The notes under the pieces: model-generated
The model's input: only the letters and a program-made list of their open reading frames with translations
Database searches by the model: none
Told to the model about the DNA's origin: nothing
Program-made: the position numbers and the translations under genes
From: Candidatus Iainarchaeum sp.
Lineage (GTDB): Archaea; Iainarchaeota; Iainarchaeia; JAADDC01
Reading direction: 5' to 3'
Assembly (NCBI GenBank): GCA_030445695.1
Contig: JASUTF010000015.1
Span: 1 to 22,485, forward strand
DNA: 22,485 nt
Shown here: positions 3 to 2,198 of the stretch, piece by piece
How positions within the stretch are numbered: the stretch's first letter is position 1
Layout: every line of letters begins with the position of its first letter

Positions 3-284
3 ATCCACTTTCTCCGCACATACGGTTCCAAGAGCAGGGCAATCGCACGGGTCTCGGGTCTGCCAAGGGTGTTCCAGCTTGCCCTGAATACGAAGGCGCA
101 CTACGTGGTGGAAGTGATCGCGGAGAGATTCGATAAACTACCTGAAGGCGAGAAGGAGAAGGTCATCATACACGAGCTCCTGCACATACCGAAGTCCATG
201 GGAGGGGGCTACAGGCACCACGACTACGTGAGCAGGAGAAGGGTAGAAGAGCTGTGGAGGGTTTGGAGAGCAAACAAGGTATAA
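3..284 (+). CDS. Putative zincin-like metallopeptidase, C-terminal part (5' end outside window)
   Basis: The reading frame is open from the window edge, so this is the last 93 residues of a longer protein. A GTG lies at 69, but the frame upstream of it already reads like conserved protein (FLRTYGSKSRAIARVSGLPR), so I treat the gene as truncated by the window, not started there. The sequence HELLH at nt 171-185 is an HExxH zinc-protease motif, and a following HHDYV could supply the third zinc ligand. This arrangement resembles the small putative metallopeptidases found in archaea and phages; the substrate is unknown. The gene ends with TAA 30 nt before the TATA box of the 16S unit and is transcribed in the same direction. 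Confidence 0.65.
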   Translation: MHFLRTYGSKSRAIARVSGLPRVFQLALNTKAHYVVEVIAERFDKLPEGEKEKVIIHELLHIPKSMGGGYRHHDYVSRRRVEELWRVWRANKV

Positions 285-313
285 AAAACTTCCGAAGATC
301 CATCTCGATACCC

Positions 314-320
314 TTTTAAA
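314..320 (+). promoter_or_regulatory. TATA box of the 16S rRNA unit
   Basis: TTTTAAA lies in an AT-rich patch between the metallopeptidase stop codon and a GC-rich structured leader. Archaeal transcription normally starts about 25 nt downstream of the box centre, which predicts a start near 341-345. That is where the 5' arm of the leader hairpin (343-351) begins. Inferred from position and composition only. Confidence 0.5.
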
Positions 321-342
321 CGCAATGTTGGTAGGATAGTAA

Positions 343-416
343 TGCCGCACGGGCGTTGCCCGGGACGGGGCGGATGCCCTGGATGAACTGATTGGTGTCC
401 ACGTGCGGCGACAGGT
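343..416 (+). ncRNA. Predicted H/ACA guide RNA in the 16S leader, target 16S T1560 (E. coli 966 equivalent)
   Basis: A 9-bp lower stem pairs 343-351 with 402-410 (one G-U), and an ACA box follows directly at 411-413. The nucleotides just inside the stem are GGCGTT (352-357) and GTCCA (397-401). They are complementary to AACGCC (1562-1567) and TGGAC (1555-1559) of the 16S, leaving T1560-C1561 unpaired, as the 'UN' of an H/ACA pocket requires. The pocket lies 14 nt before ACA, inside the usual 14-16 nt. The target aligns with E. coli 966 and yeast 18S U1191, a known pseudouridine site that is hypermodified (m1acp3Psi in yeast). The upper part can form a short stem (360-363/392-395), tandem G-A pairs (364-365/390-391) resembling a kink-turn or K-loop, and a hairpin 366-371/376-381. 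This upper fold is irregular and is the weakest part. The 3' end is estimated. Confidence 0.62.
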
Positions 417-457
417 TATGAGGATCCGAGTTTTTCATGCTCACGCTCGGGTCTGAT

Positions 458-489
458 GTGGGCGGCCAGGAGTCAACCCCGCAGGAGAG
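458..489 (+). other. Pre-16S processing stem, 5' strand with BHB motif
   Basis: Nucleotides 458-469 pair with 2187-2198 (12 bp) and 477-489 pair with 2167-2179 (13 bp). Between them 470-473 (GAGT) pair with 2180-2183 (GCTC), leaving three unpaired bases on each strand: 474-476 (CAA) here and 2184-2186 (AAA) on the trailer strand. This is exactly the 3-4-3 bulge-helix-bulge recognised by archaeal tRNA-splicing endonuclease. In studied archaea, cleavage and ligation at such sites gives a circular pre-16S and joins the two outer flanks. The pairing is seen directly; processing is inferred from known archaeal biology. Confidence 0.9.
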
Positions 490-623
490 CAGAGCACCCA
501 TTCATGCCAGCGGACCGCTATGCGGGATGAACTAGCTGGCTTGACGCCGAGCGAAAGCGATGACGAATTTTGCTTCTCTTGCAAAATATGCAGGGCTGCT
601 CCCTCGTGAGCTGCCTTGCGGCC

Positions 624-2124
<1,501 letters not shown>

Positions 2125-2166: not shown

Positions 2167-2198
2167 CTCTCCTGCGGGGGCTCAAACTGGCCGCCCAC
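2167..2198 (+). other. Pre-16S processing stem, 3' strand with BHB motif
   Basis: This is the trailer partner of 458-489; the AAA bulge is 2184-2186. Because the strand lies only about 43 nt after the mature 3' end and encloses nothing but the 16S, the 16S is processed as a one-gene unit. Between the mature end and this strand sits a 6-bp hairpin, 2140-2145/2150-2155, with an AAAA loop. After it, 2214-2218/2226-2230 can form a weak hairpin, but I see no U-rich tract that would mark a terminator. Confidence 0.88.

Follow-up and report, generated by a model that had tools for sequence, protein, structure and literature searches.

The closest described relatives of the element analyzed here are Pab19 and Tko-19 (Rfam family RF02794), H/ACA RNAs of the Thermococcales that lie, like it, in the leader of the 16S rRNA and target a uridine of the same 16S. 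The validated target of Pab19 is S1017 of the Pyrococcus abyssi 16S (PMC4652768), and the transcriptome of Thermococcus kodakarensis gives the snoRNA Tko-19 a likely position inside the 5' leader of the 16S operon (PMC4247193). The Pab19 model, used as a query, matched 77 of the 115 genomes of the Thermococcales phylum, and in all 30 loci examined the RNA sits 205-213 nt upstream of the 16S gene. At locus L090, the 9-nt 5' guide of Pab19 together with CCTCC fits U1005 of the same 16S, a position that we take, by offset, to be P. abyssi S1017 (S922 of P. abyssi was dropped as the 966 site, since this numbering places it 16 nt upstream). Hence, a 16S leader with its own H/ACA guide was already known, contrary to the earlier note, which had implied that the arrangement described below lacked a precedent. 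Our literature search found no paper stressing the self-targeting of a leader guide.

Two further systems resemble this locus in part. The yeast H/ACA snoRNA snR35 acts on the equivalent base, U1191 of the 18S, which is then methylated by Nep1 (PMC7694415); unlike the guide described here, snR35 comes from a separate gene, works in trans and is a eukaryotic H/ACA RNA without a K-turn. The box C/D guide in the intron of archaeal pre-tRNA-Trp is likewise contained in the precursor of its own target, and whether it acts in cis or in trans has long been debated (PMC7994747), but it belongs to the C/D type, directs 2'-O-methylation and resides in a tRNA intron.

Anatomy of the leader hairpin and its match to 16S

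We analyzed a window of 22,485 nt (the whole stretch of DNA under study) on contig C26 of an archaeal genome, which is assembled into 29 contigs with a total of 664,191 bases and has a completeness of 88.6%. Besides the 16S gene, a scan with Rfam detected no further rRNA or Rfam family in the window, so this 16S has no 23S directly behind it. Upstream of the gene, positions 343-413 are confirmed by sequence comparison as an archaeal H/ACA guide RNA consisting of a single hairpin (Table 1). The 9-bp stem, the ACA box and both guide strands proposed in the earlier note are all present on direct reading, and its target also held up: among all sites of the 16S, U1560 is the unique best one for this guide, with 11 of 11 Watson-Crick pairs against 8 of 11 for the runner-up.

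Table 1. Positions in the window of the 16S gene, its leader elements and the target of the guide
Feature	Positions	Strand	Remarks
TATA-like element TTTTAAA	314..320	+	TTTTAA kept in 7/7 leaders; putative promoter
Lower stem, 5' strand	343..351	+	9 bp; 100% of cells paired; 3 pairs changed on both sides
5' guide GGCGTT	352..357	+	pairs with AACGCC, 1562-1567; invariant in 7 genomes
Upper stem, 5' strand, pocket to K-turn	358..363	+	81-86% of cells paired; bulged, variable register
K-turn and apical helix	364..386	+	C-helix 366-371/376-381; bulge GAU 382-384; tandem G-A pairs, G385-A386 against G364-A365
Upper stem, 3' strand	388..396	+	seven-genome alignment
3' guide GTCCA	397..401	+	pairs with TGGAC, 1555-1559; G-to-A in G003 matches C-to-U of G003 16S
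Lower stem, 3' strand	402..410	+	direct reading and seven-genome alignment
ACA box	411..413	+	invariant in 7 genomes
Pre-16S processing stem, 5' strand	458..469	+	pairs with 2187-2198; direct reading; compensatory in G009
16S rRNA gene	625..2124	+	RF01959, 1469 bits
Guide target in 16S	1555..1567	+	U1560 (E. coli 966), predicted pseudouridine; U1560 and C1561 left unpaired
Pre-16S processing stem, 3' strand	2187..2198	+	direct reading

In archaeal H/ACA guides, the lower stem has 7-9 bp (PMC4652768) and ends directly at an ACA (ANA) box; the K-turn or K-loop is placed 5-6 nt above the pocket, from which the ACA is 14-16 nt away (PMC7991803). The hairpin conforms in its lower stem and ACA box, in the ACA distance (14 nt, positions 397-410, from the pocket-closing pair) and in the position of the K-turn (6 nt, 358-363, above the pocket and below the GA pairs). 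The pairing with the target, 6 + 5 pairs in all five genomes with a known target, agrees with the criterion of at least 8 pairs, at least 3 per side, with UN unpaired. The irregular upper stem, which had been regarded as the weak point, turned out to be a canonical K-turn, with GA and AUGA unchanged across the seven genomes compared below. One deviation counts against the guide reading. Productive Pyrococcus guides stack 10 layers between the pocket and the G-A pairs of the K-turn; here, the 5' strand has 8-9 and the 3' strand 10-12 nt with bulges. Compensation of stem length by bulges has been proposed for Pab19 (PMC4652768).

When the single sequence was folded, no H/ACA shape was obtained, whereas the alignment does give one. 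The alternative fold is the more stable of the two (-37.9 versus -30.3 kcal/mol for the H/ACA form), which means that the H/ACA structure would need to be imposed by proteins. The Rfam H/ACA families gave no match in the window leader, either at the gathering threshold or at E up to 10.

Conservation and distribution in the family

We compared the leader of the window with those of three genomes of the same genus (G001, G003, and G004) and three more of the same family (G006, G008, and G009), that is, the seven family genomes with an assembled 16S leader, and the guide is found in the same place in all of them. The 5' guide, the ACA and the GA and AUGA motifs are invariant, and the bases of the stems vary. 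In the proposed structure, 95.5% of the alignment cells are paired (97.6% in the apical helix, which has compensatory changes), compared with 41-51% in control structures slid along the alignment, and nine pairs have changed on both sides. None of 500 shuffles reached the covariation score of the guide structure, and RNAalifold, unaided, recovers the lower stem and the apical helix. The conservation and compensatory stem changes that the earlier note had asked for in related leaders are thus present.

The guide also varies together with its target. In the five genomes where both are known (the target region is missing from the assemblies of G006 and G008), 55 of 55 pairs are kept, three of them as G-U pairs. 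G003 has U instead of C in the target just before the uridine and A instead of G in the guide, while in G009 a target G faces a guide U. Judged from the sequences, this seven-genome record of conservation and covariation establishes that the guide is real.

A covariance model of the guide (R1) found one copy in the genome of the window and no second one. Among 87 genomes of the class, R1 matches were confined to the seven family members whose leader is assembled, with one weak extra match in G006; the 77 genomes of the class outside the family gave none. The family genomes without a match are G002 and G007, which have no 16S match, and G005, in which only the 3' part of the 16S is present at a contig end. 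The weak match (L065, positions 602-681, on contig C86 of G006; 26 bits) has the appearance of a stand-alone H/ACA hairpin that ends in ACA. When 84,980 named genomes were scanned with a pattern, only the six known relatives were recovered. The named relatives sharing the leader are MAGs filed under Candidatus Micrarchaeota, Diapherotrites or Euryarchaeota. A looser guide pattern, applied to the genome of the window, gave 71 matches versus 28 in the reversed control and was too permissive to be informative.

Proposed modification of U1560 and alternative readings

Candidate protein partners of the guide are encoded in the family. Cbf5 is found in all ten family genomes, and Nep1 (PF03587), the N1-methyltransferase for a pseudouridine at the 966-equivalent site (PMC7694415), in nine of them; the 77 other genomes of the class yielded no Nep1. 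Of the named control genomes, those of Methanocaldococcus and Sulfolobus encode Nep1 and that of Haloferax, where the 966 base is acp3U (PMC2584109), does not. Guide and Nep1 are tied together in that both occur in the family of the window and, among the families of the class searched, in no other. The confinement of Nep1 to the guide-bearing family is strong circumstantial support for a pseudouridine at U1560, even if the association, occurring in one clade, amounts to one evolutionary coincidence only. At the 966-equivalent position, this family has U; many other families of the class have A, C or G, and in these no Nep1 is detectable. In yeast, where the pseudouridine at U1191 becomes m1acp3-pseudouridine, Tsr3 adds the acp group at the snR35 target. 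Our search of the family genomes found no Tsr3, so the expected product here is m1-pseudouridine, with no acp step.

We consider it very probable that the leader carries an H/ACA guide that directs pseudouridylation of U1560, followed by methylation by Nep1; the anatomy, conservation, covariation, guide-target covariation and presence of Cbf5 and Nep1 all point to this explanation. Transcription would proceed from the TATA-like element and start near position 343, the first base of the stem, which lies 23 bp downstream of that element, in agreement with a TATA-to-start spacing of about 23 bp (PMC4247193). The hairpin would thus form the first 71-75 nt or so of the 16S precursor, and with a start at the first stem base little or no 5' trimming would be needed. 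L7Ae would bind the K-turn, and Cbf5-Nop10-Gar1 the ACA and the pocket; the loaded RNP would then pair around U1560 of the 16S and isomerize it to pseudouridine, which Nep1 would convert to m1-pseudouridine.

The guide lies outside and upstream of the 12-bp processing stem of the pre-16S, so that on cleavage it would depart with the 5' fragment. It may act before cleavage on its own molecule or after release on others, and our guess is release followed by action in trans, possibly with some action in cis. A stricter version, in which the pre-rRNA modifies itself during transcription, its leader working in cis through both the H/ACA hairpin (U1560) and a half C/D element at 525-563 (helix-44 decoding region), seems to us unlikely; if true, each ribosomal RNA would come with its own modification kit, in 1:1 supply.

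A chance match in a leader hairpin with a purely structural role would be one alternative, and the earlier note had put its expectation at under one in a thousand. This was too low: when any U of the 16S and any loop length were allowed, 731 of 20,000 shuffled leaders carried a guide pair with an ACA at the right distance. However, none of the 20,000 did so once the stem was also required, and chance accounts neither for invariant guides amid varying stems nor for the K-turn, the covariation and the matched change in G003, so that the seven-genome comparison refutes this reading in practice and we give it a negligible probability. A role like that of snR30/U17, in which the RNP would aid folding or cleavage of the pre-16S and modification would be secondary or absent, is very improbable. 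snR30 is a non-modifying H/ACA RNA required for 18S processing (PMC7601244), and the hairpin does belong to the precursor, adjoins a K-turn hairpin and the processing stem, and keeps exactly 4 nt between its ACA and the following ATG in all seven genomes; yet the pocket geometry is exact for one uridine, the guide follows its target, and Nep1, specific for pseudouridine at the U1560 site, is limited to the same family.

The remaining alternative is a question of ancestry and not of mechanism, namely, that the guide is a diverged ortholog of Pab19 that has switched target, which we regard as doubtful. The two share their location in the 16S leader, R1 aligns over its full length to Pab19 next to the 16S in two Thermococcales genomes (about 25 bits), and Pab19 has GGCGUC and CUCCA at matching places. 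Nevertheless, the R1 matches are weak and fall on HgcG as well, the Pab19 model finds nothing in window positions 250-650 even at E up to 10, and searching 16S leaders (up to 700 nt) of the other families of the class revealed no guide with a true ACA box. Pab19 also differs in its target and in the long single-stranded 5' part of its internal loop, and the window guide does not fit the S1017-equivalent uridine, fitting only U1560.

Compared with Pab19, what is new in the H/ACA guide of the window is its site, its sequence and its lineage. It firmly assigns a guide to the helix-31 base (E. coli 966), a known base of the decoding site, for an archaeal lineage whose genomes are reduced, and the two RNAs together suggest that the 16S leader is a recurrent, or else an ancient, place to keep a guide for the 16S. 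The cis-or-trans question becomes testable in Thermococcus, which has genetics.

Other elements of the leader

Between the guide and the processing stem, positions 417-457 form a second K-turn hairpin (ATGA-GGATCCGAG-loop-CTCGGGTC-TGATG), found 4 nt after the guide in all seven genomes. Of 28 other 16S leaders of the class, 23 contain the same ATGA-stem-loop-stem-TGA element, with a stem of 8-9 pairs; three leaders from outside the class lack it. The element is probably an L7Ae site for pre-rRNA processing, and we know of no description of it.

The box C/D-like half guide at positions 525-563 lies within the processing stem and reads, in order, GGATGA, guide, D'-like CCGA, small stem and GATGA. 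Its 12-nt guide, GCTGGCTTGACG, is the perfect complement of the 16S helix-44 region at 1997-2008, the fifth base before the D'-like box facing A2001 (E. coli 1408). The small stem covaries within the family. In G009, pairing is kept via a G-U.

Just before the 16S, positions 613-623 (GCCTTGCGGCC) are complementary to 1487-1497, shortly upstream of the central pseudoknot strand, a pairing similar to the U3-like one that has been proposed for archaeal leaders. In several other families of the class, the leader contains CCAATTCCATT, which is complementary to 1506-1516.
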